Positions 1,659 through 63,112 of a stretch of 64,000 nt of DNA are shown piece by piece. The notes under the pieces are model-generated. The model did not search any database, had not been told where the DNA came from, and was given only the letters and a program-made list of their open reading frames with translations. The stretch spans positions 38,443,296 to 38,507,295 of the forward strand of contig NC_030386.2 of the NCBI RefSeq assembly GCF_001625215.2, given 5' to 3'. The translations under genes and the position numbers were made by a program. Position 1 is the first letter of the stretch. Each line of letters begins with the position of its first letter. Source of the DNA: Daucus carota subsp. sativus (Eukaryota; Streptophyta; Magnoliopsida; Apiales; Apiaceae).

Positions 1659-2043
1659 ATGGCCACCTCTAAAATTGCAGCCATGCTCATGATTTGTCTT
1701 TTCTGGAGCTCTTTTATTGCTGAATGTAAGTTTGATCTGCATTAATATTTTTATTTTTTTGAAGTAACATTAATATTTATTGTTGATTTTATCAGGCATG
1801 AAGTGTTTGCACACATCTATTACACTTGATTGTAATTTGTTTAATTATGCAGGTGAATTGATGAAAGAGAGTTCTCGAAAGATGCTCAAGAATGATGTCC
1901 CGGACGGTGGTTTTTGTATACCTAATTTTTGCTCCGACAATAATGAAAGTTCAACAAAGTTTCAAGTTTTCTGTTGGTGTTGTGTTGCAGGAGATTTCAG
2001 CGGCTGCGTTAAATCAAAAAAAGAGTGTAACAGACGTTGTTAA
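1659..2043 (+). CDS. ESF1-like secreted cysteine-rich peptide, copy 1
   Basis: Two exons, 1659-1725 and 1853-2043, with a GT-AG intron of 127 bp in phase 1 (GAA T|GT). Product 85 aa. Exon 1 encodes a signal peptide: MATSK, then a hydrophobic stretch ending near AEC. Exon 2 encodes an acidic/basic linker starting ELMKESS and a core C-x4-C-x13-CWCC-x7-C-x6-C-x3-C. These eight cysteines, with the CxCC centre and the x6/x3 spacing at the end, match the EMBRYO SURROUNDING FACTOR 1/MEG peptide type. In Arabidopsis, ESF1 peptides act from the endosperm side on early embryo and suspensor patterning. The role here is inferred. The start was chosen because all copies share MA-S-K plus a leader. An ATG at 1780 lies inside the intron. 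Family naming rests on the cysteine pattern only; another plant cysteine-rich peptide class remains possible. Confidence 0.82.
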
Positions 2044-2686
2044 TCATCAAATTCAAGTATACTTTGTAATAAATTGTGTAGATCAAAGTTTTGGAACTGT
2101 GAAATAAAAGTTGGACACTCGTGATAATGTAATATATGTCTTCATTTTATTTACTAAAAATTGAGATGTATTTTTTTCGCAATTCAATATTTGATGGTGA
2201 TAAAGTAAATTGGACTTGATATTTAGTATCATTCCAATGAGTTTAAAATATTACGCCTGTAAACCCCTTTTGCAAGGAACCACCGTGACGGGCTTGCAAA
2301 GCATGTATAAATCTCACTGCCTCCCCTCTTTTCAAGGGACAAATCATACTCCAAACAATTTATTATTTATGTGCCGCAGAGAAATCGAATCCTTTATATT
2401 GTGAAAGTGAAACACAAGGCAGGTCAGTGTCAATGAAAACATCGAGTAAAGTACTAGTACTATGTCATTACGTTACATTTATACTTTGTGCAAAGCAGAC
2501 CCCAAATATATGAATTAAAACCACCCAGTAGTGGTAGATATATTTTCCGGAAGCTAAAAACACGTATAATCCGTTTGGAAGGAAGTTAAAAACTCTTTCA
2601 TTTTCTTCGCTTACTTGTTTTCTTGCATAACATTTTTTTTCCTTAAAATGTTAGAGTTAATTTTCATATATAGACAAAAAAACTTG
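2044..2686. other. Intergenic spacer between peptide genes 1 and 2
   Basis: AT-rich 3' flank of copy 1 and promoter side of copy 2. No further coding signal is seen. The last 80 bases resemble the copy 1 promoter. Confidence 0.5.
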
Positions 2687-2695
2687 TATATATAT
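2687..2695 (+). promoter_or_regulatory. TATA box of peptide gene 2
   Basis: TATATATAT about 50 nt before the ATG at 2740, in the same context (ACTTGTATATATAT, then CCAATTACTTCAT) as copy 4. Confidence 0.7.
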
Positions 2696-2739
2696 GACCA
2701 ATTACTTCATTCTTCAAAAATTTTATAAAATAAAAAAAG

Positions 2740-3099
2740 ATGGCCACCTCTAGACTTGCAACCATGCTCATGATTTGTCTTCTCTCCGCCGTTTATATTG
2801 GTGAATGTAAGTTTAGTCACATATATATATTTATCATTATCATTAAATTTTAAATCTTTGCGCACCTATTTACATGTAACCATAGTAATTTGCTTAATTG
2901 TGCAGGTGAGTTGATGAAAGAGAGTTCTCAAAAGATGCTTGACACAGATCCCAACAAAAATTTCAAGAATGGTTTGTGCTTACCTAATATTTGTTTGAAT
3001 GAAAGTTCAGCGAAGTTTCAAATTTTTTGTTGGTGTTGTTCTGCCGGACGTATCGCGGATTGCGTTAGATCGAAACAGCTGTGTAATAAACTTTGTTGA
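2740..3099 (+). CDS. ESF1-like secreted cysteine-rich peptide, copy 2
   Basis: Exons 2740-2806 and 2906-3099, intron 99 bp, phase 1 as in copy 1. Product 86 aa. The signal peptide (MATSRLATMLMICLL...) is followed by CELMKESSQKML and the core C-x4-C-x11-CWCC-x7-C-x6-C-x3-C. It is the nearest relative of copy 1 in both the leader and the ELMKESS linker, so the two look like a recent tandem duplicate. The loop between cysteines 2 and 3 is two residues shorter than in copy 1, and the basic loop between cysteines 6 and 7 (VRSKQL) differs. Probably secreted to the apoplast. Family assignment rests on the cysteine spacing. Confidence 0.82.
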
Positions 3100-3549
3100 T
3101 GAATAAATTCTAAGTACTTTAATATAAAGCTTTTGTAAGTTCTAGTACTATTTTATCGCAACTTCTTGAAATTGTGAAGTAGAAGTTGGTTTTTTCATTC
3201 TATTTACGAGAAATTGAGAGTTCAAATTTATGAGAAAAGATGAAAATTTATGAGATAAAAAATTATTAATATAATTATAAATTATATTTTAGATTAATAT
3301 TGTATAGTCTTATAAAATTAAATTTTAAAAGGAAATAAGTCAATAGAAAAGATTAAAATTTTTAATTTTTTATATTCCTACTTATATGTAAGAAGGTGGT
3401 TTATAATTTTTTAAATAAATAATACAATTAAGCTAACTCTGTTTATAATCAGAAGCACGACTATATAGATCTGAATATGATAGATAACATATGCAATTTC
3501 CGCTTGACCTTCCTACATGTATTCATAGTAAATTTGTTTAGTTATTCAG

Positions 3550-3726
3550 GTGAGTTGACGAAGGAGAGTTATCACTTATCAGCCAATGAAAAATCCAAGA
3601 ATGCTTTCTGTTTACCTAATTTTTGACATTTGTTATAATAAAAATTCAGCAAAATTTTCAGTTTTTTGTTGGTGTTGTTCTGGAAGAGGGTTCGCCGATT
3701 GTTATAGAACCAAAAAGAAATTGTAA
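3550..3726 (+). pseudogene. Relic of an ESF1-like peptide gene (exon 2 only)
   Basis: The sequence starts with the same intron end and exon-2 opening as its neighbours (TTCAG|GTGAGTTGACGAAGGAG, giving ELTKES) and still contains the CWCC segment near 3668-3680. The reading frame stops right after the first cysteine pair (AAT TTT TGA). The last two cysteines are gone, and no exon 1 with a signal peptide is found upstream. It is a decayed third member of the array. Confidence 0.8.
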
Positions 3727-4418
3727 GGGAAATTATATGTTAAATATTCTTGAACATAAGAAAATTAATTTAGTTGTTGTAAATTAGAAATATAATATAT
3801 TTTTTATATTTTATTAATAAAAAATTATTAAAATTATTAAATAAACAATATATTAATTTTTAAAAGTACAAATAAATATATTTGACTCTCTTAAAATCAT
3901 ATAATATCATAAAAATCAGATTTAAAATTTGTCATATAATTTTTCATTCCGTTTCTGCATCAAAACCAAACAAGTAAAACAATTTAAGATCATTACTTTC
4001 TTTTCTCCGCATTTCCCTTTCTGCATTCCATTCCGTTTCTCCGAAACGAACCAAACGCCCCTAAATATAATCTTTTGTTCTATAAAGTTTCCAGATCAAT
4101 GGATCGAATTATAAGAATATTACTCTAAACAAGATGAGAAAAATACTAAATTTGCTGTGACAGTTCAGGTGATCTTTTAAAGTATTGCTCTTTATACATG
4201 TTTGGTAATCATAATATGGAATAATTTCCATTTTCTTTAATAAAACAAATCCATCCATGTCCTCGTATTAGTAATTCGTTTAGAAGGAATTTAAATCTCT
4301 CTTTCATACTCTTCCACTTTTTTATTTTATTGTGCAACAACTTTTCCCGGAAAAAGGTAGTGTTAATATTGTATAGTAGCTGACATTCTTTTGAACTCTG
4401 ATTAGCAAAAAATACTTG
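3727..4418. other. Intergenic spacer with a MITE-like end
   Basis: AT-rich. Around 4030-4062 a sequence ending CCAAACGCCCCTAA resembles a Tourist-type terminal repeat, but no partner end was found. No genes are seen. Confidence 0.35.
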
Positions 4419-4427
4419 TATATATAT
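4419..4427 (+). promoter_or_regulatory. TATA box of peptide gene 4
   Basis: TATATATAT about 50 nt before the ATG at 4469. The flanks are shared with copy 2 (ACTTGTATATATAT, CCAATTACTTCAT). Confidence 0.7.
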
Positions 4428-4468
4428 CACCAATTACTTCATGTTTTAACAATTCCATGATTTAAAAT

Positions 4469-4808
4469 ATGGCACCCTCTAAACTTGTAATCATGCTCGT
4501 GATTTTTCTTTTCTCTCTACCCTATATTGTTGAATGTAAGTCTAGTCTACTTCTATATTTCTTGTTTTTATATATATCATAATAATTTTTTAAATTATGC
4601 AGGCGACCTGATGAATGAGAGCTCCAAGAAGATGTTTAAAGCTGATTATGTTAACAAAAAATTTAACATCGGATTCTGCTTACCTCAAATTTGTTTCGGT
4701 AAAATTTCGACAGATATCCACTTTCGCATTTGTTGGTGCTGTATTGGAGGAGCTAGTCCGGATTGCGTCAAATCAAAATCAACTTGTAATCATATTTGTA
4801 ATTTGTAG
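4469..4808 (+). CDS. ESF1-like secreted cysteine-rich peptide, copy 4
   Basis: Exons 4469-4535 and 4603-4808, with a very short 67-bp intron in the same phase. Product 90 aa, the longest of the array because the linker is extended (about 25 residues between the first core cysteine and the leader). The signal peptide starts MAPSKLVIMLVIF. The core is C-x4-C-x12-CWCC-x7-C-x6-C-x3-C followed by NL. It belongs with copies 1 and 2 by promoter and linker (DLMNESSKKM). A shifted-frame reading over 4615-4842 is a shadow of this exon. Confidence 0.82.
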
Positions 4809-5431
4809 TACTATTTCGGCACAACTTCTTAAAAGAATATAATAAAATCTACGTTGAGAGTTTAAATATATATTTACTTTTTGTTGAAGAAACGAGAATC
4901 AAGTATTCGATAGAGTTGACTCTCAATTTTGATGATGAAAATGTCAGATATCCAAAAAGGTATTTCTTCCTTCAAATCTAATTACTAAGGTATATAATTC
5001 CCACTTACACTAATAATAATTAGATTTTATATACACAAAAATCATCCAATTAAAATTGGTCATCTTTCTGTCATGTTATTTGGAAGAAAAAAAATATGAA
5101 AACGATACGATACCTAAAAAAACTCTTTAAATATTAATTTAAGTAATACAGTGGCCTCTGTCAAAAAAAAAAAGATAATATATACACAGTGGCCGTTATT
5201 TGAGCATTATTTTTTATAACCGATTTGATAGCATTACTACTCTGTAACCTAACATTTATTTTCTTTTAAAGAAACTTACGCCCAACATCTTTAAAACCAG
5301 TCGTTTGCACTTTGCATATTAAAAGCTTTCAATTCATTACATTCTACATTTTCTACAAAACAGTTAAAACCGAATAAACTTGTTCATCTCCATGTTAATT
5401 AAAAATTAACACTATAACATAGTATTGTACT
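4809..5431. other. Intergenic spacer before peptide gene 5
   Basis: AT-rich 3' flank of copy 4 and upstream region of copy 5. No clear TATA box like those of copies 1, 2 and 4 is seen. No other features. Confidence 0.45.
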
Positions 5432-5791
5432 ATGGCCTCCTCAAAAGTTATAGCCATGCTCATGTTCAATATGATTCTTCTCCTCTCCAACTCTTTAATA
5501 GCCGAATGTAAGTTTAATCCACATTTACATTACATTTTTTATTAATTATCTAATCTATATTCTATATTTGCATGTATATTATAGTAATTTGTTCAATGAT
5601 CAGGCGACTCCATGGATAAGAGCTTTGGAGGGATGCTCAACGGCGGAGAAGCCAAATTTAAGCTCAATTTTTGTATACCCTATTTTTGTACTAATCAAAT
5701 TGCATCTGATTTTTTCCCTTGCTGGTGTTGTGCTGGATATCCTGAGGATTGTTCAAAAAAAAGATCGGATTGTCTTTTCTCTTGTGAATGA
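5432..5791 (+). CDS. ESF1-like secreted cysteine-rich peptide, copy 5
   Basis: Exons 5432-5507 and 5604-5791, intron 96 bp, phase 1. Product 87 aa. The signal peptide is three residues longer than in copies 1, 2 and 4 (MASSKVIAMLMFNMILLL), a trait shared only with copy 6, so 5 and 6 form a second subgroup. The core is C-x4-C-x10-CWCC-x6-C-x6-C-x3-C, with one residue fewer after CWCC than in the other subgroup. A longer reading from 5568 begins inside the intron and runs in a different frame. Probably secreted; function inferred from the cysteine framework only. Confidence 0.8.
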
Positions 5792-5841
5792 TCAAATCCA
5801 ATAAAGCGTATGTTTACGATCTCCAATTGGCTAGCTTCTAA

Positions 5842-6202
5842 GAGCATCTCCAATAGGCTCTTAAATAGGCTCCTAACTCAAGATATAAAGAGAATGTTCA
5901 AAAATTGAGCTCCAAAAGCCTCCTAGTGGCTCTTAAAAATCTTAAGAGCCTCTTCTCTCTCCTCTAATTTAAGAGCTACTAGTTGGCTCCTAACTTGATA
6001 AAATAATCATTTCTTCCCATTCTCATATTAGACTCCCACTACATGACAAATGTTTGAATTCAAAATATAAATAAAATATAAGTTAAGAGCATATATAAGG
6101 AGCATTGTTGGAGTTGACACTCTTAATTTTATATTAACTTATTAGGAGTTTAATATTTTATATTATATATAGGAGCCAACTAGGAGACTATTGGAGATGC
6201 TC
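5842..6202. mobile_element. Tourist-like (PIF/Harbinger) MITE, GAGCATCTCC family
   Basis: Terminal inverted repeats GAGCATCTCCAATAG at the left and CTATTGGAGATGCTC at the right, flanked on both sides by TAA (5839-5841 and 6203-6205). 361 bp, non-coding. The TAA/TTA target duplication is the mark of PIF/Harbinger-type MITEs. A second member lies at 8396-8737. Confidence 0.85.
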
Positions 6203-6387
6203 TAAGGACTTTCCCGTTAATGGTGACTGACATAACAATTTAATTGATTATATTTGGTTCTGTTATTTGTTTCCTAAATCATTTTGGAAGTTCTAAAGAA
6301 ATCTTTTTCGAGTTTAACCCACTAAAATTTCATTAATGCATAAAAATAAAAATAAAAAGTATATCATTTCATGACTAATTTCTTATA

Positions 6388-6420
6388 CTAGTGAAGAATC
6401 CGCGCGTTGCGGCGGTTTAT
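6388..6420 (-). mobile_element. Helitron 3' terminus (minus strand)
   Basis: Read on the minus strand, the sequence ends with a GC-rich hairpin (CCGCCGCAACGCGCGG, 6400-6415), a short spacer and CTAG, followed by T. This is the standard Helitron 3' end (hairpin, CTRR, T of the AT target). The element body would lie to the right, into the repeats at 6420-7650. The 5' TC end was not located. Confidence 0.65.
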
Positions 6421-7060
6421 AAAAATTATATTAATGATTCAATATTAATATTTGTAGAATGCAATATATTTGTGGAAATCTATAAAAAGTATATTAATGA
6501 TTCAAAGTTAATATTTGTAGGATAAAATAAATTTTATATTATTGATGTAATACCAATACTAATATATAAAATTGCAAAATTGGACTATAATTCATGGTGA
6601 AAAATGAAAATAAATTTCTACGCGTAATCATGTTCTTACATTGTCGCCAACCTCCAATTTTTTCGGATTGATTGTTCACAAAAACATCTAACTTAAATTC
6701 GTGAAATAGCGGTCTATAACTACCCTTGCTTATAACAAACTTTATTTTTTAATACTGTATAAACAGTATTCACTTAAAAGTTGCTTGAACGGAGCAAACA
6801 GATAATGCATGAATAATATTTTCCTGTATACAAAGTAAATCATATAAAAATTAACAACAACAAACATGTCCGATGAACAAAACAAATATTATAAAAGAAT
6901 AACTAAAAAACATACATCACTAATAGTTAATTTATTGATATCATCCATCAATATCATGTCGAAACTATATTCATCTCCCGTGTTTGGATTTTTCGACTCC
7001 CACATAGCGGTCTATAACTACCTTTGCTTGCAACAACCTTTATTTTTTTAATACCATATA
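6420..7060. repeat. Helitron-derived AT-rich repeats
   Basis: A sequence of about 60-65 bp beginning TATAAAAATTATATTAATG recurs directly after itself (about 6418-6525). A segment with GGTCTATAACTACC...TTTATTTTTTAATAC at about 6710 is repeated at about 7010. This fits the interior of a decayed non-autonomous Helitron. No coding capacity is seen. Confidence 0.4.
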
Positions 7061-7648
7061 AACAGCCTTCACTTATCGTTGTAGAAGAAGGACACCATTG
7101 AGTTAGAAATCGAGTAAGAGAACTATCACCAAAGAGAGGTAGGGTTGTGCTATTGAGGGAGAGGAGGTTGTGTTTAGATGATCCAAAAGCTTATAACCTA
7201 TAGAGGTATTTATAGGTGCAGAGAGACTTGTGTGCTATTCTTTCCCATAATTAAATAATCTGAAACAAAATCATATTAAAACTTTCAAGCTACTATATTC
7301 CATTCCATAAATAATCTAACTAAATATTCCATAAATAATAAATAATCTAAAATAAACAGCCTTCACTTATCGTTGCAGAAGAAGGACACCATTGAGTTAG
7401 AAATCGAGTAAGAGAACTATCACCAAAGAGAGTTAGGTTTGTGCTATTGAGGGAGAAGAGGTTGTGTTTAGATGATCCAAAACCTTATAACCTATAGAGG
7501 TATTTATAGGTGCAGAGAGACTTGTGTGCTATTCTTTCCCATAATTAAATAATCTGAAACAAAATCATATTAAAACTTTCAAGCTACTATATTCCATTCC
7601 ATAAATAATCTAACTAAATATTCCATAAATAATAAATAATCTGAAACA
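7061..7648. repeat. Tandem duplication of a 294-bp promoter-like unit
   Basis: Two head-to-tail units start with AACAGCCTTCACTTATCG at 7061 and 7355 and differ at only a few positions. On the minus strand each unit carries TATAAATACCTC, and further downstream a CTCTTACTCGATTTC leader-like stretch. The unit therefore resembles a captured promoter and 5' leader facing left. No protein could be assigned. Confidence 0.75.
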
Positions 7649-7649
7649 A

Positions 7650-8392
7650 AATCAGATACTGAAACTTGCTTCTAATATATCCGAAACTAAAAAAGGTAGT
7701 TCTAATTTTTGATATTTTGCATCCAATAATTTCAGAAAAATAGAACGGAGCGATGTGAGATGCGCCATCTACACGCCCCTCGCTTCTAAAGTATATTGAT
7801 TTGGTTAATTTGATACACAACATGATAAAGTTAGAGGAAGAACATTTCAAAAATATATTTTTCTCTTTCTATGAATGTATCTGGAATGCTTTGAAGTTTG
7901 AACACCTTTAACACCTAAGTATATGTTTGATTGTTCTAAAAGCATCATCCACGATACAAAATATATTATTAAAAATAGTTCAAAAATAACAATTTTATAA
8001 GAAAATAACGTCTATGGTAAAATTTAGTCAACCTCCTAAATTTTGCTAACGAATCACTAGCGGACTGCAACATAACATCGATCAATTATTTGATTAAAAT
8101 AATATATTTTATTCATAAAATTTGAAATAATATTAAATTATATTTTAAAATAATTCGGTCATAAGCAGGTGTCTTAAAACATCTCCAACCATATAGAACC
8201 TTAACTCAAATAACTAATCCATACTATAAATTGAAAATATAGAGATTATGCGGGAGAAGATCATCTCTAATGGAGGAATTTTCTTATATGTAATTTTAGC
8301 CGACCATCCAGCGTTGACTATATTCAGCGTTGACTATATTCGTTGAACCATCCGAATAATAATAATATACTACATCTGTAGCATCCAAATGT
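7650..8392. other. Intergenic DNA
   Basis: AT-rich. A partial copy of the CATCTCCAACCAT MITE motif occurs near 8190. No gene is seen. Confidence 0.4.
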
Positions 8393-8395
8393 TTA

Positions 8396-8737
8396 GAGCA
8401 TCTCCAACCATCTAAAACCCTCCAAAAACTCAACTCCAACCATGCTCACCTGTTGTCTATAAATTTAGTCAACCTCCTATGGATGGCTAAATTGTCGAAC
8501 CTCTACAAGTCTGTAAGAAAATCTGTAGGAAGATTGTACATCATTTATTACCATATTGAACTGATATATTCTATTTTAACAATTTAAAATATTAATAACA
8601 TACTATTTTTAAATTATAGTCAACCAATATAGCCAGTACCATTGAAGCAAAATGTCTTACAGGTTCAGCAAATTTTACATAATGTCTTACAGGTCCAATT
8701 TAGCCAACGATTATAGCCAACGCCGTTGGAGATGCTC
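8396..8737. mobile_element. Tourist-like (PIF/Harbinger) MITE, GAGCATCTCC family
   Basis: Ends GAGCATCTCCAACC and GTTGGAGATGCTC form inverted repeats and are flanked by TTA (8393-8395 and 8738-8740). 342 bp, non-coding. Same family as 5842-6202. Confidence 0.85.
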
Positions 8738-8740
8738 TTA

Positions 8741-9182
8741 TATTTGGATTGCGCATATGAAGTTAAGAAAATATATAAATTATAATTTATGAATTGTTCC
8801 ACGTGTATATATAGGGTAGATTATATTATTGTAGTTTCCAGATATTTTATTAACATTTATATATTTTAAGACTATTAAAATATATTTTACAAGATATATT
8901 AGTGAAAGCGCTGAGAAAATACGTGGTCTATTAGTTGTTATCTGGTAACGGTCAAATGAAGTAATTATACAGTTACCAAAATCGGAAATATTTAGATTGA
9001 ATAGGAGTTAATATGCAATTAATAGAAAAGATCTAATTTTATTTCCCAGCTGTAATAAGTGCTATTCAGTAGATTTTCAAGATTTTCTCTTTGAGTAAAT
9101 ATGGTAAATCTTGTATTTATTGATCAATCAATATTGTAAGTCATTCGATTTTCTCAATAAAATTGGATTTGTCCTGAACCCC
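8741..9182. other. Intergenic DNA before peptide gene 6
   Basis: No gene is seen. A TATATATATAT run at about 9183-9193, 45-50 nt before the ATG at 9235, is the likely TATA box of the next gene. Confidence 0.5.
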
Positions 9183-9234
9183 TATATATATATCCACGGT
9201 AAACGATAATTAACCGACAACATAATATTATAAC

Positions 9235-9578
9235 ATGGCCTCCCCAAAGTTTCTAGCCATGCTCATGTTCAATGTGATTCTTCTTTTCTCCAATCCTTTG
9301 GTGGGCGAATGTAAGTCTAATCTACTTTTACACTATAGTTTTTAAATATTGTTTTAATTATATAATTGCATATATGTTTATTATTGTTTTGTATTGAATA
9401 ATCAGGCGACTTGATGAACAAAAGCTCTGGGATTATACTTGATGGTGGGGAGAAGTATGAGACGAAGATCCATATTTGTATACCTACTCTATGTAACAAT
9501 AAAACTTGTTGGTGTTGTGTTGGAGGATCTAAACAATGTCTTGCGACAAGAGAAGAATGTCTTGCGACGTGTCATTAA
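9235..9578 (+). CDS. ESF1-like secreted cysteine-rich peptide, copy 6
   Basis: Exons 9235-9310 and 9406-9578, intron 95 bp, phase 1. Product 82 aa, the shortest of the array. The signal peptide MASPKFLAMLMFNVILLF carries the same three-residue insertion as copy 5. The linker is CDLMNKSSGIILDGG. The core is C-x4-C-x4-CWCC-x6-C-x6-C-x3-C-H. The loop between cysteines 2 and 3 is cut to four residues (NNKT) against 10-13 in the others, while every cysteine is kept. It lies 3.4 kb from copy 5, separated by MITEs and a Helitron fragment. Probably functional and secreted; family assignment by cysteine pattern. Confidence 0.8.
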
Positions 9579-10885: not shown

Positions 10886-11578
10886 CTACTGCAACTTCAG
10901 CGTAAAAGAGAACCTTGACTTTTTCGTAGGATGAGGACTTTCAACTTCCTCCTCTCTGAACACACTCCACATATCCGGCACCGCCGGCACGTTCAGATCA
11001 AATCCACGGTGGTGACTGTTAGTGGACCCCACACCTTCCGACGTCGTCACGCCACTGCTACTCGTCCCGTTGTTTCCTCCGTCGTAGTGGCGGCGCTTGT
11101 GCCCGCCCAAAGCCTGTCCGCTCGGAAAACACTTGTGGCAAATCGAGCACTCGTGTGTCCTTCCACTAGTGGTTGTCGCGGTGGCGGAGGAGGTGGTGGC
11201 GGCGGAGTTCGTGTCGGAAGTCGTGCCTTTCCGGTGACTCGCTTTGTGGCCGCCGAGCGCTTGGTACGACGCGAACGCCTTGTCACACACAGTACACGTG
11301 TAAACTACGTCAGTATTTGATTGAGGTGGATGAGTGACTGATTTGGCGGGAAAGATGCTTTTATCGCCGTCGTGAGCGAGCATAACGAGACACAGAGCTA
11401 AGTACTCGTCAGTATTCACATTCTGATACTGATCATGATCATGATCATGATCATCTTGTGATTCTGATTTGCGAGATCTTTTGGAGCGCTTGCCTTTAGT
11501 CCACGATTCGAGATTGCAGACGTAATTGCTTTGATCCAGGTTAGCTGAACTAGGGATGCTTATTGCTTCAACTGCCAT
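10886..11578 (-). CDS. C2H2 zinc-finger repressor, ZAT10/STZ-like
   Basis: Intronless, 230 aa. Order of motifs: a basic B-box KGKRSKRSR (about residues 28-36, probable nuclear signal), an L-box [11 protein letters not shown] (about 58-68), and two C2H2 fingers with the plant QALGGH helix (about 94-114 and 141-161). Near the C-terminus is an EAR repression motif, [10 protein letters not shown]. Spacing and motifs match the Arabidopsis C1-2i group, closest to ZAT10/STZ by the HRGFDLN and KKSRF ends. In that family the protein is a nuclear transcriptional repressor induced by salt, drought, cold and other stresses. A TATATATA box lies about 95 nt upstream (11672-11679). Reverse-strand readings over 10931-11320 are shadows of this GC-rich gene. 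The orthologue within ZAT6/ZAT10/AZF cannot be fixed by eye. Confidence 0.93.
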
Positions 11579-33900: not shown

Positions 33901-36104
33901 ACATTGATGTAGTAATGTCGCGAACCTGAAATGGAAGTGCATGTGATGAGAAGACACTTAAGAAAAAACATTCTAGTCCACAACAGTATAAAGGTAAATT
34001 ATCCAGCATCTAGTGTTTCGACAACAATTTTTAATCAAAGAACCTTAAGTACCAAAGATTGACGGTTAAAATGTAGATTACTTATATAAAAATCATTCCA
34101 GTCTATTCTTGAACCCAATCCCCCTTTTGTAATTCATGGTTATGACAGATAACAACTCTAAAAGGTATTGCAAGTCTACATTTCAATTTGGCCAATATCA
34201 TTACTTACCAAATGAGAAGTCATGAATTAACAATGCTATAAAACCCCACCCCCAACTAAATTGACTTGTAACCGAAAAATCACATACGAATACGACAATC
34301 AAATGATACAAAATTCCCTTTCAGCTATAATATATACTCCAAGACCATCTAAAACATGATAAAGCAAGAAAATATAATGATTGAGATGCTTACTTCTTTT
34401 CGACAAATTCATGCTGTATTTTGCTATTGAAAGCATCTATTATTGAAGCCAACGCTTTTTCCCTTGTTGACCCCCTGCATGAGTCACAGGAAACACTAAT
34501 TTTCAGCATTACTAACTACTTGAATTTCTTCGAACTAATACAAGGGGCAAGAATATAAAATAGATAAAGCGGTATAAAGGGGCAAAAAAGACCTTTTCTC
34601 GTATAAATCATCTAAAGCCTGATCAAGTATAGAATCTTTTTCAAGCTGCAAGTCCACAACACCAGACACCAGCAATTGTTCTGACGGCAAAGTAGAACTT
34701 GAACTCACACTGTCAGTATCAGAATAATCTAAAGTCGCTGCCACATTCTTACGTTGAGAACTACCTGTATGTCCCAAATAACACCAAGTTAAATCTCAAT
34801 TCATTTAGATCCTTAATTTTCAATCCAAAATTATTATAATTACACATGCAACATACTCAAACATCATAATCACCATAAATAACATTTGAATTGAAAACAC
34901 TACAACTATAAATATATCAAATTGTTATAAGCTTTAACATCATAATCAAATTTAGAAACATCATGATTGAACTAATAAAATACCATTTCAAAATCAAGTC
35001 CTCAGTTTCTGCCAAAAATTGGTAAGTTACAAAAATAACATGCTTTAACATCATAATTACCATCAATAACTAACTGAATTGGAGAAAACTGCTGGTTCCA
35101 TAAATCAAACCATAACAAGCTAACATCATAATTAAAGTTCGAAACATCATAAGTGAACTTAGAAACAACAATCAAAATTATTTCCTAAATCTCAATTTGT
35201 AACTAATTGAATTGTAACTATACCAAGTTCAAACATCACAATTTAACTTGGTCACTAGACAGATAAAGAAGGCTACAACATACATAAATCAAACTGTAAC
35301 ATTCTTAAAAATCATAATTGAACTTTGGTGCATCATAATTGAACTCGAAAACACAATTCAATATCAAATCCTTAAAATTCAATCCAAATTATTAAAATTG
35401 CAATTATAACAAAAAAAATACATAAATCAAACAATGAAATGCTAAAACATCATAATTATCAGAAACATCATAATTGAACTCAAAAACATTAATTCAAAAA
35501 TCAAATCCATGAATTTCAATCCAAACTAGTAGAATTACATATATAACATTCTCAATCATTATAATTAAACTTAGTTACTGACCTAAACGAGAATAACTAA
35601 AAATTACATCATAATTAAACTTCACCAACTTGAATTTCAATCCAGAATGATAGTACACATCTAACATTCTCAAACATTATAATTAAACTTAGTAACTGAC
35701 CTAATCCAGAAGAACTACAAGTTATATCATAATTAAACTTTGGAACATCATATTTGAACATAAAAACACCAATTCACAATCATATCCTTGAATTTCAATC
35801 CAAACTAATATTACACATATAACATGCTCAAACATCACAATTAAACCTATTAACTAACCTAATCGATAAAAACTACAAACTACATCATAATTGAACACTG
35901 AAACATCATAATTGAACTCCAAAACACCAATTCACAATCAACTCCTCTAATTTCAATCCAAACTAACATAATCACACATATAACACGCTCAAACATCATA
36001 ATCAAACTACAAATCCAACTAAACCTCAAAAAACTCAAATCGCGATTAAAACCGCGCAAACAACACAAATCGAATATCGAAACAATCAACTTACGTTTCC
36101 CCAT
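30937..36104 (-). CDS. Interferon-related developmental regulator family protein (SAT32-like)
   Basis: Thirteen exons on the minus strand: 36104-36095, 34764-34593, 34474-34394, 33925-33843, 33762-33647, 33561-33451, 33183-33074, 32871-32562, 32486-32409, 32323-32273, 32164-32078, 31573-31496, 30981-30937. All have GT-AG borders and keep frame, giving 443 aa, the usual length for plant members. The protein starts MGKRSSQRKNVA with a Ser-rich stretch. An ARM-like IFRD domain follows (about 55-330), with LDDLYEKRGSTREKAL, LLHQCLSSIKKGSAKEI and VHPKLGSNVVAIKPSPAV. Then come SVEAGGKGSAKKDLNSQR, FLGGGFVKQMQ and the C-terminal KSRTQFLNKQRMLSQ. Arabidopsis SAT32 is a nuclear protein of this family tied to salt response; the animal relatives IFRD1/2 are transcriptional co-regulators. 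The first exon is only ten coding bases, and intron 1 is 1.33 kb of degenerate repeats. Confidence 0.95.
34850..36010. repeat. Degenerate tandem repeats filling SAT32-like intron 1
   Basis: The motif AACATCATAATTGAACT, together with CAATTCACAATCAAATCC and TGAATTTCAATCCAAACTA, recurs roughly every 100-130 bp, about nine or ten times, with many substitutions. A minor satellite has expanded inside the intron. Confidence 0.75.
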
Positions 36105-38600: not shown

Positions 38601-41228
38601 ATGTTATCTCTTACACAAAATCTCTCTCCTCTCTCTTCACCACCACTTCAATCTCAAAAACAACTTCAAAATCCCAACTCCACACTCAACTTCACCAAGA
38701 AATCTCCCTCCCCAGCATCATGGATCGAGTCTCTCCGCTCTCTAACACGTTCAAATCAGTTTCAACAAGCTCTGTACACTTATAATGATATGATAATGGC
38801 TGGTGTTGTGCCCAACAACTTCGCGTTCCCGGCTGTTTTGAAGGCTGTTACTGGGCTAGAGGATGTGAGAGTTGGGAGGCAGATTCAAGGGAGTGTTGTT
38901 AAGCTTGGGTATGATTCGAGTTCGGTGACGGTGGCTAATAGTTTGTTGAATTTGTATGGGAAGTGTGGGGACGCGGGGGATGTTTACAAGGTGTTTGATA
39001 GAATGCCTGAGAGAGATCAGGTGTCGTGGAACTCGATGATTGCGGCATTGTGTAGGTTTGGGGAATGGGTGTTGGCGTTGGAGTTTTTTAGGGTGATGCA
39101 GGTGGAGGGAGTGGAGCCGAGCTCGTTTACGTTGGTGAGTGTGGCGCTGGCGTGCTCGAATTTGGAGAAGCGGGAAGGGTTGGTACTTGGGAAGCAAGTG
39201 CATGGGTTTAGTTTGAGGGTTGGGGGAATGAAGACGTTTACGAATAATGCATTGATGAAAATGTATGCTAAGTTGGGGGAAGTTGATGGTTCTAGGTATA
39301 TGTTTGAGTTGTTTGAGGGTCGTGATATGGTGTCTTGGAACACTATGATAAGTGCTTTGTCGCAAAGTGATCGGTTTTCTGAGGCGATGGCGTACTTTAA
39401 GCTTATGTTGCATGAAGGGATTAAGCCTGATGGGGTTACAATTGCAAGCATTCTTCCTGCATGCTCGCATTTGGAGTTGTTAGATGTCGGGAAAAGAATT
39501 CATGCTTTTGTGTTGAGAAATGATGATTTGGTTAATAATTCTTATGTGGGAAGTGCTTTAGTTGACATGTACTGCAATTGCCGGCAAGTTGAAAGCGGGC
39601 GCAGAGTTTTTGATGGTATTGTAGATAGAAAACTTGCTCTTTGGAATGCTATGCTTGCTGGTTATGCACAAAAGGGGTTTTACAAGAATGCTTTAATACT
39701 GTTTCAGGAAATGATGGAGTTTTCAGGACTTTTTCCATGCCCCACCTCAATGGTAAGTGTCTTGCCTTCTTGCGTGCACTATGAAGCATTTTCAGACAGG
39801 GAAGGAATGCATGGGTATGTGCTGAAGATGGGTTTCGGTAGGGACAGGTATGTCCAGAATGCACTTATGGACCTGTACTCTAGGATGGGAAAGATAGACA
39901 TCTCAAAGAAAATATTTGAGAGTATGGATGTTAGAGACATTGTTTCTTGGAATACAATGATCACTGGTTACGTAGTTTGTGGACTCCATGAAGCGGCATT
40001 AATTTTACTTCATGAAATGCAACACACAGAAGAAGAAAATCAGAAACTTGATGGTTATGTTGAAAGAAGATTATCCTGTAAACCTAATTCTATTACTCTC
40101 ATGACTATCCTTCCTGGTTGTGCTGCTTTAGCTGCACTGGCAAAAGGAAAGGAAATCCATGCTTATGCAATAAGAAATGCGCTGAGTTCAGATGTCACAG
40201 TAGGAAGCGCTTTGGTAGACATGTATGCTAAATGTGGTTGCCTGAGTTTAGCTAGAAGAGTTTTCGACGACATGAGAGTTAGAAATGTGATCACATGGAA
40301 TGTTATGATTATGGCTTATGGGATGCACGGAAAGGGAAAGCAAGCTTTAGAACTTTTTAATAAAATGTCTCTCAAAGGCGCTGTGGGTGAGGAAGTAAAG
40401 CCTAACGAGGTTACGTGGATAGCGGTATTTTCAGCATGTAGTCACTCTGGAATGGTAAATGAAGGCTGGAATCTGTTTCAGAGATTGAAATCGGACTATG
40501 AAATGGAACCCACATCCGATCATTATGCTTGTGTTGTTGATTTGCTTGGCCGAGCAGGTCAATTGGAGGAAGCTTATGAACTTGTCAACACAATGCCTCT
40601 TCATTACGACAGAGCAGGTGCATGGAGCAGTCTGCTTGGTGCTTGCCGGATTCACAAAAATGTAGAACTTGGAGAAATTGCAGCCAATAGTCTCCTTAAA
40701 TTGGAGCCAAATGTGGCTAGTCACTATGTTCTACTCTCTAATATCTACTCATCTGCCGGTCTCTGGGAGAAAGCAACGGAGGTGAGAAAGAAGATGATGA
40801 ACATGGGAGTAAGAAAAGAACCTGGGTGCAGCTGGATTGAGTTTGAGGATGAGGTACATAAGTTCATTGCTGGGGATGGATCACATCCTCAAAGCAAGCA
40901 GCTCCATGAGTTCCTTGAAACCTTGTCAGATAAATTGAAAAAGGGAGGTTACGTGCCTGATACTTCTTGTGTTCTTCACAATGTTAATGAGGACGAAAAG
41001 GAGAATTTATTATGCAGCCATAGCGAGAGACTAGCGATAGCCTTTGGTCTTCTCAACAGTCCTCCTGGAACCACCATTAGAGTTGCAAAGAACCTGAGGG
41101 TTTGTAATGATTGCCATGCTGCTACTAAGATTATCTCAAAAGTAGTTGAGAGGGAGATTGTTGTACGAGATGTTAGGCGATTTCACTATTTCAAAGATGG
41201 AACTTGTTCGTGTGGGGATTATTGGTGA
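38601..41228 (+). CDS. OTP84: PPR-DYW RNA editing factor, OTP84-like
   Basis: Intronless, 875 aa. An N-terminal Ser/Thr/Leu-rich leader of about 35 residues looks like a chloroplast transit peptide. A long PLS-type PPR tract follows (repeated units such as VSWNSMI, GSALVDMYAKCG, VITWNVMIMAYG), then E and E+ motifs (GAWSSLLGACRIH, KEPGCSWIEFEDEVHKF) and a full DYW domain. The DYW deaminase signature HSE is at about residue 807, CNDC at about 835-838, and the protein ends CSCGDYW. Length and wording match Arabidopsis OTP84 throughout, including YVPDTSCVLHNVNEDEKE. OTP84 is needed for C-to-U editing of plastid ndhB, ndhF and psbZ sites; that specificity is inferred from similarity. Antisense readings over 38856-39964 are shadows. 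Confidence 0.95.
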   Translation: MLSLTQNLSPLSSPPLQSQKQLQNPNSTLNFTKKSPSPASWIESLRSLTRSNQFQQALYTYNDMIMAGVVPNNFAFPAVLKAVTGLEDVRVGRQIQGSVVKLGYDSSSVTVANSLLNLYGKCGDAGDVYKVFDRMPERDQVSWNSMIAALCRFGEWVLALEFFRVMQVEGVEPSSFTLVSVALACSNLEKREGLVLGKQVHGFSLRVGGMKTFTNNALMKMYAKLGEVDGSRYMFELFEGRDMVSWNTMISALSQSDRFSEAMAYFKLMLHEGIKPDGVTIASILPACSHLELLDVGKRIHAFVLRNDDLVNNSYVGSALVDMYCNCRQVESGRRVFDGIVDRKLALWNAMLAGYAQKGFYKNALILFQEMMEFSGLFPCPTSMVSVLPSCVHYEAFSDREGMHGYVLKMGFGRDRYVQNALMDLYSRMGKIDISKKIFESMDVRDIVSWNTMITGYVVCGLHEAALILLHEMQHTEEENQKLDGYVERRLSCKPNSITLMTILPGCAALAALAKGKEIHAYAIRNALSSDVTVGSALVDMYAKCGCLSLARRVFDDMRVRNVITWNVMIMAYGMHGKGKQALELFNKMSLKGAVGEEVKPNEVTWIAVFSACSHSGMVNEGWNLFQRLKSDYEMEPTSDHYACVVDLLGRAGQLEEAYELVNTMPLHYDRAGAWSSLLGACRIHKNVELGEIAANSLLKLEPNVASHYVLLSNIYSSAGLWEKATEVRKKMMNMGVRKEPGCSWIEFEDEVHKFIAGDGSHPQSKQLHEFLETLSDKLKKGGYVPDTSCVLHNVNEDEKENLLCSHSERLAIAFGLLNSPPGTTIRVAKNLRVCNDCHAATKIISKVVEREIVVRDVRRFHYFKDGTCSCGDYW

Positions 41229-43079: not shown

Positions 43080-43238
43080 ATACTTACCTGGATGGGGTCA
43101 ATGGATGATCAAGAAGGTCCATGGCCTAGGCTAGTGACCTCCATTGCACTCTGGAGGGGTGCTAGCCTAAGATCTACCCAAGTGGTGGAGTCTACATCAT
43201 AATTTGTGACAGGGGGACTTGCGTTCGCGCAGTCCCCA
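43080..43238 (+). ncRNA. U1: U1 spliceosomal snRNA
   Basis: Begins ATACTTACCTG, the 5' splice-site recognition sequence. GATCAAGAAGGTCCATGG and CTAGTGACCTCCATTGCACT follow in the stem-loop I-II region, then GATCTACCCAAGTGGTGGAG, the Sm site ATAATTTGTG (about 43199-43208) and a terminal stem closing with AGTCCCC. About 159 nt, the normal plant U1 length. With a perfect USE, a TATA-like box at the right spacing and a 3' box, the gene looks intact. Spliceosomal U1 binds 5' splice sites in the nucleus. A protein reading over 42888-43202 is a shadow. Confidence 0.93.
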
Positions 43239-43253
43239 CAATTCTAGTTAAAT
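43239..43253 (+). terminator. 3' box of U1 snRNA
   Basis: CACAATTCTAGTTAAAT fits the plant snRNA 3'-end signal CA-N3-10-AGTNNAA directly after the U1 body. Confidence 0.8.
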
Positions 43254-43314
43254 GATTTAGAAGGAACCTATGGAAAGATCTAGTTAAATGATTTAGAAGG
43301 AACTTATGAAAAGA
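43243..43314. repeat. 36-bp tandem duplication after U1
   Basis: TCTAGTTAAATGATTTAG... at 43243-43278 is repeated at 43279-43314 with two changes. It covers the core of the U1 3' box. Confidence 0.9.
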
Positions 43315-43380
43315 GACGAACTGCTGTTTGATTGTTTATAAATGAGATTTGGCTTGTGTTTTAAAGCTCTGTTTTACAGT

Positions 43381-43391
43381 GTACCACATCG
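43381..43391 (+). promoter_or_regulatory. USE of the U2 snRNA gene
   Basis: GTACCACATCG, one mismatch to RTCCCACATCG. TTTATAA follows at 43424-43430, about 32 nt away, and the U2 body starts at 43456. This is the same layout as the U1 promoter. Confidence 0.8.
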
Positions 43392-43423
43392 AGAGATTTA
43401 TGTTAGAGGTAGAAAGGCTGAGC

Positions 43424-43430
43424 TTTATAA
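43424..43430 (+). promoter_or_regulatory. TATA box of the U2 snRNA gene
   Basis: TTTATAA about 26-32 nt before the U2 start. Confidence 0.7.
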
Positions 43431-43455
43431 CCACAAGCGCGCAACAGAAGCAAGC

Positions 43456-44440
43456 ATACCTTTCTCGGCCTTTTGACTAAGATCAAGTGTAGTATCTGTT
43501 CTTAGGGGAGAGCATGGGCCGGTTCGGCTCGGTTTTTGGACAAAACCGGAACCATATATCTTCGGTTTTTAAAATCGAAAACCGCAACCGCCGGTTCGGA
43601 TTCGGTTTCGGTTTAAAAATCCCGGTTTGGTTATAATCGGCCCGGTTTCGGTTACAAAACCGGTAAATATCAAATATAAAAGCAATATACAAACAAGATA
43701 AATTAATGTACGAAATTCATACATAATAATTAATAAAAAATAATAATTAATACAAGAGTAGTTTAGCATAAATAATAGGAGTATATTCTAGTTCAAATTT
43801 CTAACAGTGAGAGTCTAAATTGCCTTGTGGATGCTGTAAGATCATAAATTAATTCAAGGCAGTATCACAGAATAGTCTCTAGCTTAGCAGCGGAGAAATT
43901 TTCACAGAAGAGAAGTTATGCATGAGTAGGTTTCACCTTATAACTAAACTCTCGCAAAATATTATATTATGTTTGGTTTGCAACCTTTTGAAAAACATTT
44001 ATATTAAGTATTAACTAATAGCACTGAAGAAGCCATCTGCAGTATAACAAAATAAGTTATTGAAAGTGTTGAGAAAGGAAGAGCATATTATAAATTATAT
44101 ATTATTATTATTATTATTATTTAAATAATCGGTTCGGTTCGGTTTTTTCCGGTTCGGTTTTAACCAATAACCGGAACCGAACCCATGAACTCGGTTCGGT
44201 TTTTTAATTTTCGGTTTCGGTTTCGGATCGGTTTTTCTCGGCTCGGTTTTTACCGGTTTTGACCGGTTTCGGTTCCGGATCGGTTTTTTTTCGGTTTTTT
44301 GCTCAGCCCTATCTATTCTTATCAGTTTAATATCTGATATGTGGGCCATTGATCTACACGATATTAAATTTATTTTTTGAGGGGAAAGTTCCATCACAGT
44401 AGCTTGCTGCTGGGTTCTGCTTTGGCCTGGCACACCCCAC
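43456..44440 (+). pseudogene. U2: U2 spliceosomal snRNA gene split by a hAT MITE
   Basis: The 5' part (43456-43502) reads ATACCTTTCTCGGCC...AAGATCAAGTGTAGTATCTGTTCT, including the branch-site pairing GTAGTA. One base differs from the usual U2 (TTTTGACTAAG for TTTTGGCTAAG). The rest resumes at 44312-44440 with TCTATTCTTATCAGTTTAATATCTGATATG, the Sm-like ATTTATTTTTTGAG and a 3' stem. A 3' box (CAAATCAAGTTTAAA, about 44441-44455) follows. An 809-bp transposon sits between the two parts, so a normal U2 cannot be made. Changes in the loop GGGCCATTGATCTACAC weaken a conserved stem, which also suggests decay. Originally an ordinary U2 gene paired with U1. Confidence 0.93.
43503..44311. mobile_element. 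hAT-type MITE inserted in U2 snRNA
   Basis: Ends TAGGGGAGAGCA and, reversed, TAGGGCTGAGCA, with an 8-bp target duplication TCTGTTCT (43495-43502) and TCTATTCT (44312-44319). An 8-bp duplication is typical of hAT elements. Both subterminal regions are crowded with GGTTCGGTT-like repeats. 809 bp, no transposase. Apparent readings over 43483-43769 and 44095-44448 are translated repeats. Confidence 0.9.
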
Positions 44441-44455
44441 CAAATCAAGTTTAAA
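44441..44455 (+). terminator. 3' box of the U2 snRNA gene
   Basis: CAAATCAAGTTTAAA fits CA-N3-10-AGTNNAA immediately after the U2 body. Confidence 0.75.
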
Positions 44456-61509: not shown

Positions 61510-61518
61510 GTTTTTTTA

Positions 61519-63112
61519 TCTAATATATAAAAACTTCATAATTAAAAGTTAAAATTGTTGAATGAAAAAATTCTTTGTTATTCGAAAACCATAACTGAAA
61601 GTCTTAATTTGAAAATTGAATGTGGTGAAATGGAAACTGCATAAATTATACGAAAAAACATTGTAGTCATATATGCTAAAATTAGTGATAATTAAATTAA
61701 GTTTGATTACGTTTTCTTATTTGCATATGAATTATAGCTTGCTAGATTCATATATTTGGAAATTTTAAAAATCTAATATATAAACACTTCATCATCAAGA
61801 ACTAAAATTGTGGAGTTAAAAGGTGTTGCATTGATATGAAATTATATAAAAAAAATCTAGATTTGAAACTTGAATGTGATGAATATGGAAACCAGTACAT
61901 ATATTAGAAAAAAGGATTGTAATAATAAATGTCAAAATCAGCGAAAAGCAAATAAACATTGACTGCCTTTCTTTATTTACATATGAGTTATAGCAGGCTT
62001 GACCTATTTATCCGAAAATTTAAAAAGTCAAATATATAAAAACTTACTTATCGAGAGCTAAAATTGTGGAGTGAAAAGATACTCTATTAATAATGCAATT
62101 ATAACAAAAAAATCTTGATTTTAAAATTGAATATAATGAACATGGACACCGCATAAATTAAACAAAAACGTATTGTAATAATGAATGACATAACAGTGGA
62201 AATCAAATGAAGTTTGACTTCTCTATTCGCATATAAGCTATAGCAATCCAGATCCATGTATCGAAAGTTTGAAAAATCTTTGTATATGAAAACTTCCTTA
62301 TCAAGAGCTGAAATTATGGAGAGAGAAAAGACTCAATTAATTTGAAATTATAACAAAAAGTATTGATTTGCTTATTGAATTGTTAATGTATATGGAAGCC
62401 ACTATATTTTATACAAAAATGGATTGTAATAATAAATGCCAAAATCATTGAAAATCGAATAACTCTTGATTATGTTTCCTTATTTACATATAAGTTACAG
62501 CAGGCTAGATTCCTGTATCTGAAAATTTAAAAAGTCTAATATATAGAAACTTCCTTATCAAGAGTTAAAATTGTGGAGTGAAGAAATACTTTGTTAATCG
62601 GAAATTATAACAAAAAGTCGATTTGAAAATTGAATATAGTGAAAACAGAAACCACACAAATTATACGAAAAAATATTGTAGTAATAAGTGCTAAAATAAG
62701 TGGAAATCAAATTATATTTGACTATGTTTTCTTACTTGCTATGAGTTATAGTAGTGTATACGTATGTATCGGAAAATATAAAAAAAATTAATACATAAAA
62801 ATTTTATTATCAAGAGCTAAAATTGTGGTGTTAAAAAGTCTAGATCCATGTATCCGAATATTTAAAAATCTAATATATAAAAACTTCGTTATTAAGAGCT
62901 AAAATTGTGGAGTGAAAAAAGACTCCATTAATTCGAAATTATAACAAAAAATCAAGATTTGAAAATTGAATACACTGAATATGGAAACCACTACATATTA
63001 TACAAAAAAGGATTGTAATAATAAATGCCAAAATCATTGAAAATCAAATATATTTTGACTACTTTTCCCTATTTACATATGAGTTGTAGCAGGCTAGATT
63101 CATGTATCTGGA
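61519..63112. repeat. Tandem array of about 253-bp monomers
   Basis: Monomers begin with TCTAATATATAAAAACTTC or close variants at about 61519, 61772, 62028, 62277, 62535, 62788 and 62869 (spacing 249-258 bp; the sixth unit is cut to 81 bp). Shared inner words include GAGCTAAAATTGTGGAGTG and TTGTAATAATAAATGCCAAA. It directly follows the palindrome array. Confidence 0.88.

Follow-up and report, generated by a model that had tools for sequence, protein, structure and literature searches.

A tandem array of eight-cysteine CXCC peptide genes in carrot, probably resembling those for ESF1 and PCP-B peptides

What is encoded by the short spliced genes that follow one another near one end of a stretch of carrot DNA (Daucus carota subsp. 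sativus, contig NC_030386.2, positions 38,443,296 to 38,507,295), and at which contact might their products act? The whole stretch of 64,000 nucleotides is called the window here, and all coordinates are positions within it. The first 12 kb were read and the genes were spliced in silico, yielding a tandem array on the + strand that spans 1659-9578 and consists of five intact genes, each with two exons, and a relic. Splicing gave open readings of 85, 86, 90, 87 and 82 amino acids for genes 1 to 5, respectively. The gene find is sound and its kind is already known. With a probability of roughly 0.6, we read the locus as a tandem array of plant CXCC cysteine-rich peptide genes (ESF1, PCP-B and Meg; the Meg/Ae1 supergroup) whose products would be secreted ligands at reproductive contact. 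Annotation often omits short spliced genes for cysteine-rich peptides.

Gene 1 (1659-2043) is composed of exon 1 at 1659-1725, an intron at 1726-1852 and exon 2 at 1853-2043. The same arrangement was found in gene 2 (2740-3099; exon 1 2740-2806, intron 2807-2905, exon 2 2906-3099), gene 3 (4469-4808; exon 1 4469-4535, intron 4536-4602, exon 2 4603-4808), gene 4 (5432-5791; exon 1 5432-5507, intron 5508-5603, exon 2 5604-5791) and gene 5 (9235-9578; exon 1 9235-9310, intron 9311-9405, exon 2 9406-9578), all on the + strand. The introns are 67-127 bases long and AT-rich (75-82%), and all five have the donor GTAAGT and the acceptor TGCAG or ATCAG. In every gene the last base of exon 1 is the first base of a cysteine codon, which is thus split by the intron. 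The in silico splicing bore out both the coordinates and the pattern of five intact genes and one relic on the same strand that had been proposed in a preliminary description of this DNA.

The mature part of all five proteins carries eight cysteines in the core C-x4-C-x(4-13)-CWCC-x(6-7)-C-x6-C-x3-C. The loop between the second and third cysteine comprises 13, 11, 12, 10 and 4 residues in genes 1 to 5, and CWCC is followed by seven residues in genes 1-3 and by six in genes 4 and 5. This core, likewise part of the preliminary description, occurred five times in the six frames of the window and in none of 60 simulated windows generated by a first-order Markov model that keeps the neighbour-base composition of the window. 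There were six occurrences of CWCC, in the five genes and the relic, compared to a mean of 0.017 in the simulations.

Exon 1 encodes a hydrophobic stretch in all five genes, with a best 12-residue mean hydropathy of 2.3-3.3. The intron-split residue represents a ninth cysteine and lies directly before the probable cut of the signal peptide (position -1), with A, G, V, A and G at position -3 in genes 1 to 5. The signal peptidase rule permits the small residues A, G and V at -3 and C at -1. Judging from the hydrophobic stretch and the small residues at -3 and -1, a signal peptide is likely in all five proteins. A cut behind the split cysteine would leave exactly eight cysteines in each mature peptide, which for gene 1 would be 62 residues long. 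Met and Ser are kept behind the split cysteine (M26 and S29 of gene 1).

How did the array arise, and are its members still genes? Comparing the mature parts of the paralogues, the ratio of nonsynonymous to synonymous substitution rates (dN/dS) was 0.21-0.79 and thus below 1 in all ten pairs; therefore coding sense has been kept. The synonymous rate dS ranged from 0.57 to 1.88, some pairs being near saturation. From these rates the five genes look like kept coding genes whose copies are not very recent. Positive selection was considered for exon 1, where the ratio was 7.24 for genes 1 and 2 and 1.08 for genes 2 and 5 and did not exceed 1 in the other eight of the ten pairs; no weight was given to the two higher ratios because they rest on about 15 synonymous sites.

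The array arose by duplication. A blastn self-comparison demonstrated that genes 1, 2 and 3 have exon, intron and upstream DNA in common; by self-comparison and alignment, the stretch upstream of gene 1 (1494-1658, + strand) is like 2587-2739 in front of gene 2 and like part of 4212-4468 in front of gene 3. To judge from these matches, the upstream stretch of genes 1-3 is carried along in the duplications. Genes 4 and 5 make up a further pair and have a different upstream stretch in common (9190-9234, + strand, in front of gene 5, like 5386-5431 in front of gene 4 in the self-comparison), which has little likeness to the upstream DNA of genes 1-3. When the five peptides were searched against the 64 kb by tblastn, no convincing copy emerged outside 1659-9578, the best E value there being 0.31. 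Between genes 4 and 5, a recent tandem duplication of two 294-base copies, 97% alike, is located at 7058-7650. Of the genes found next to the array, the closest is an open reading frame (ORF) of 230 amino acids with two C2H2 zinc fingers on the - strand (10886-11578), a possible synteny anchor.

The relic (3514-3726, + strand), delimited by blastn self-comparison and three-frame translation, consists of the end of an intron and a degenerate exon 2, the exon part starting at 3550. Its closest match is gene 2 (72% over 216 columns, compared to 69% over 206 for gene 1), and its homology begins at about 3514 inside the intron. The reading frame is interrupted by a stop and changes once, and the last two cysteines are missing. 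No convincing exon 1 was detected in 3100-3549. There, blastn at E of 1 or less gave 45 scraps, of which the best covered 20 bases of AT-rich DNA at an E value of 0.007; the exon-1 peptides of three of the five genes, used as tblastn queries, matched three fragments, all with E values of at least 1. The claim that all copies have a signal peptide and a cysteine-splitting intron thus holds for the five genes and fails for the relic, of which only exon 2 is left.

To which family do the encoded peptides belong? According to Table 1 of PMC9856046, the PCP-B pattern is CX4CX(7-8)CXCCX(6-8)CX6CX3C in A. thaliana and A. lyrata and slightly wider in B. oleracea (loop 8). The spacings CX4C, CXCC-X(6-8)-C, CX6C and CX3C of this pattern were found in all five genes. 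The spacing had been described as ESF1-like; it agrees with the printed pattern of the PCP-Bs, which are relatives of ESF1, except in one loop. Searches with hmmscan against 24736 Pfam models at E values up to 10, a range in which few matches above about 0.1 pass the HMMER filters, listed Meg (PF24153) for four of the five proteins (gene 5, 23.4 bits, E 7e-5; gene 3, 20.0 bits; gene 1, 13.5 bits; gene 2, 11.5 bits) and ESF1 (PF18209) for two (gene 5, 16.0 bits, E 0.014; gene 3, 13.3 bits), and no other families. For gene 4, no Pfam family was listed at E up to 10. Several observations weigh against our assignment. The loop comprises 4-13 residues compared to 7-8 in PCP-Bs, none of the five genes lying within that range, which was derived from pollen-coat members of three Brassicaceae and may not hold for the whole family. 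None of the proteins reached the Meg cut-off of 27 bits or the ESF1 cut-off of 24.1 bits, and three were without any ESF1 match. Finally, shuffled sequences with fixed cysteines matched Meg in two of ten cases (17.1 and 11.4 bits) and ESF1 in none of ten, besides two unrelated chance families. Since Meg was matched by such shuffles, a share of the Meg score is due to the cysteine frame alone, and for genes 1 and 2 this may apply to the entire score. The profile search suggested in the preliminary description gave a divided answer, as no other family outscored ESF1 and Meg and all scores remained below the curated cut-offs. PMC4236715 describes no detectable likeness between Meg and ESF1 beyond the cysteine pattern, so that low scores are to be expected between true relatives; likewise, the scores obtained here cannot prove descent.

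A different, undescribed eight-cysteine family that reached the CXCC frame independently would account both for family scores that all lie below cut-off and for the share contributed by cysteine spacing alone. This explanation is very unlikely, as genes 3 and 5 show residue-level likeness to maize MEG14 beyond the cysteine frame. MEG14 (7dab) was the top PDB sequence match of the five-gene profile (E 0.22), of gene 5 (E 0.013) and of gene 3 (E 0.07). The search with gene 4 returned chance matches only, and genes 1 and 2 were compared with PDB sequences as part of the five-row profile only. ESF1.3 was not among the PDB sequence matches, the presence of an ESF1.3 entry in the searched copy being unchecked. 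Each gene was aligned locally to a fragment of 28 residues from MEG14, and comparison with 5000 cysteine-fixed shuffles per gene gave p values of 0.0002 for gene 5 (the floor), 0.0004 for gene 3, 0.012 for gene 1, 0.09 for gene 4 and 0.18 for gene 2; the fragment is the stretch matched by gene 5 and favours this gene. By these alignments, likeness to MEG14 beyond the cysteines is clear for two of the five peptides (genes 3 and 5).

Antimicrobial cysteine-rich peptides often occur in tandem arrays and change fast, and the array might accordingly encode apoplastic defence peptides merely resembling the ESF1/PCP-B frame. Net charges of +2, +3 and +4 for three of the five mature peptides would suit such a function, whereas the other two have charges of 0 and -2, and Pfam listed no defensin, thionin, snakin or LTP for any of the proteins at E up to 10 under the filters mentioned above. 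We consider a defence function unlikely. RALF, EPF, EC1 and STIG1 were dropped as candidates together with the defensins, thionins, LTPs and snakins; none of them appeared in the same listing.

Two AlphaFold models were calculated from five-row alignments. Confidence was modest (67.8 and 61.7, with values below 50 for the first 19-20 residues), and both models contain a pair of strands, then a bridge of two residues and a helix at the C-terminus. Searches of PDB folds with the two models yielded chance-level matches only. The fold of ESF1.3 and PCP-B is described in PMC5215366 as one helix and a three-stranded antiparallel sheet. The models would agree with the ESF1 fold in the order of elements at most, and neither support nor exclude it further.

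If the locus encodes CXCC-type ligands as we propose, the signal peptide would be removed at or near the intron-split cysteine, releasing a mature peptide of 56-67 residues. Its eight cysteines would probably form four disulphides that hold a hairpin and a C-terminal helix, with a tryptophan within CWCC. Most likely, the peptides would act extracellularly as short-range ligands of receptor kinases at reproductive contact. This contact might be that between pollen coat and stigma, as for PCP-B gamma on FERONIA, or that from central cell or endosperm to embryo, as for the ESF1s, and copies of differing loop length may differ in receptor preference.

Further features were observed elsewhere in the window. 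An ORF of 875 amino acids at 38601-41228 (+ strand) encodes a PPR protein with E, E+ and DYW domains, which is probably an organelle RNA editing factor. At 43080-44453 (+ strand), a U1 small nuclear RNA gene scoring 147.9 bits and a pair of U2-like matches lie within 1.4 kb on one strand. The U2-like matches, which scored 57.0 and 58.3 bits against a gathering score of 46, may be diverged copies. A strong GC skew of -0.37 was found at 34001-36000, and 35629-36007 contains 2.4 tandem copies of a 158-base repeat. A 256-base tandem repeat with about five diverged copies is located at 61518-62836.

How does the carrot array compare with known systems? The nearest is the PCP-B/ESFL group of Arabidopsis and Brassica, comprising ESF1.1-1.3 and PCP-B alpha to epsilon, whose members are likewise small, predicted to be secreted, provided with eight cysteines and frequently duplicated. 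According to PMC5215366, the three ESF1s and the PCP-Bs belong to twelve Arabidopsis PCP-B-like genes with a common eight-cysteine motif, and PMC9856046 gives ESFL8 and ESFL9 as further names of PCP-B gamma and delta. The aromatic residue described as essential in ESF1.3 (Trp-48) and kept in the PCP-Bs, as Tyr-45 in PCP-B gamma (PMC5215366), corresponds to the tryptophan of CWCC in all six carrot copies including the relic, its place within CxCC being derived from residue numbering. It is possible, though tentative, that the peptides are pollen-coat ligands only, a narrower form of our proposal in which they would set pollen hydration via FERONIA-type receptors of the stigma. The PCP-B spacing outside the one loop (PMC9856046) is consistent with this, as are the description of PCP-Bs as often duplicated and quickly diverging while their cysteine frame stays fixed (PMC5215366) and the binding of PCP-B gamma to FERONIA (PMC9908550; action of PCP-Bs on this receptor is also described in PMC12034098). 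However, the ESF1s share gene family and frame with the PCP-Bs (PMC5215366), and the carrot loop departs from the printed length.

The second system is maize Meg, including Meg1 and MEG14. PMC4236715 places it in the Meg/Ae1 supergroup, whose 17 subgroups have a simple CXCC motif in common and little other likeness. This defining motif is present as CWCC in all five carrot genes and the relic. The peptides were filed under this broad supergroup only, as they stay below the curated cut-offs of ESF1 and Meg alike. With Meg, the carrot genes have in common the CxCC-x7-C-x6-C-x3-C end of MEG14, local duplication (PMC4236715) and the best Pfam and PDB sequence scores. The printed Meg motif CX6CX4CYCCX14CX3C (PMC4236715), however, begins with x6 and has a fixed x4 loop and a tyrosine, whereas all five carrot genes begin with x4 and have tryptophan and a loop of 4-13 residues. 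Only gene 5 has x4 before CxCC, and no gene shows the Meg motif as a whole. An exclusively seed-side function, in which ESF1/MEG-type peptides from central cell or endosperm would steer the growth of embryo, suspensor or transfer cells, is again a narrower form of our proposal. The Meg score of 23.4 bits, the MEG14 match and a tryptophan as in ESF1.3 instead of the tyrosine of PCP-B gamma might point to it, but the likeness found does not tell seed from pollen members, and the spacing follows the printed PCP-B pattern in all but one loop, the first spacing being unlike that of Meg. Taken alone, it is likewise a possible, though tentative, option.

A role in seed development, as envisaged in the preliminary description, is thus not favoured over the chief competing role, as the pollen-coat PCP-Bs are members of the same gene family in Arabidopsis. 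Seed and pollen-stigma roles appear about equal options because the nearest family serves both and its Arabidopsis members are expressed on one side or on both, a mixture of pollen and silique expression being described in PMC11435202. PMC5215366 lists 282 PCP-B-like sequences from seven angiosperm families. A more speculative and improbable extension would be that the plant lies outside these families listed in 2016 and that its loop-varied copies, with two upstream types, serve species-specific recognition of pollen or seed. In that case, the array would represent a natural series for testing loop length against receptor choice. In Arabidopsis, relatives of these peptides control the hydration of pollen and the patterning of the embryo (PMC5215366; PMC13022542, for the role of ESF1 in patterning). 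Loops of 4 to 13 residues on a single constant frame would help to find out which part of the peptide selects the receptor. The carrot peptides resemble the ESF1/PCP-B peptides and probably function in the same way.

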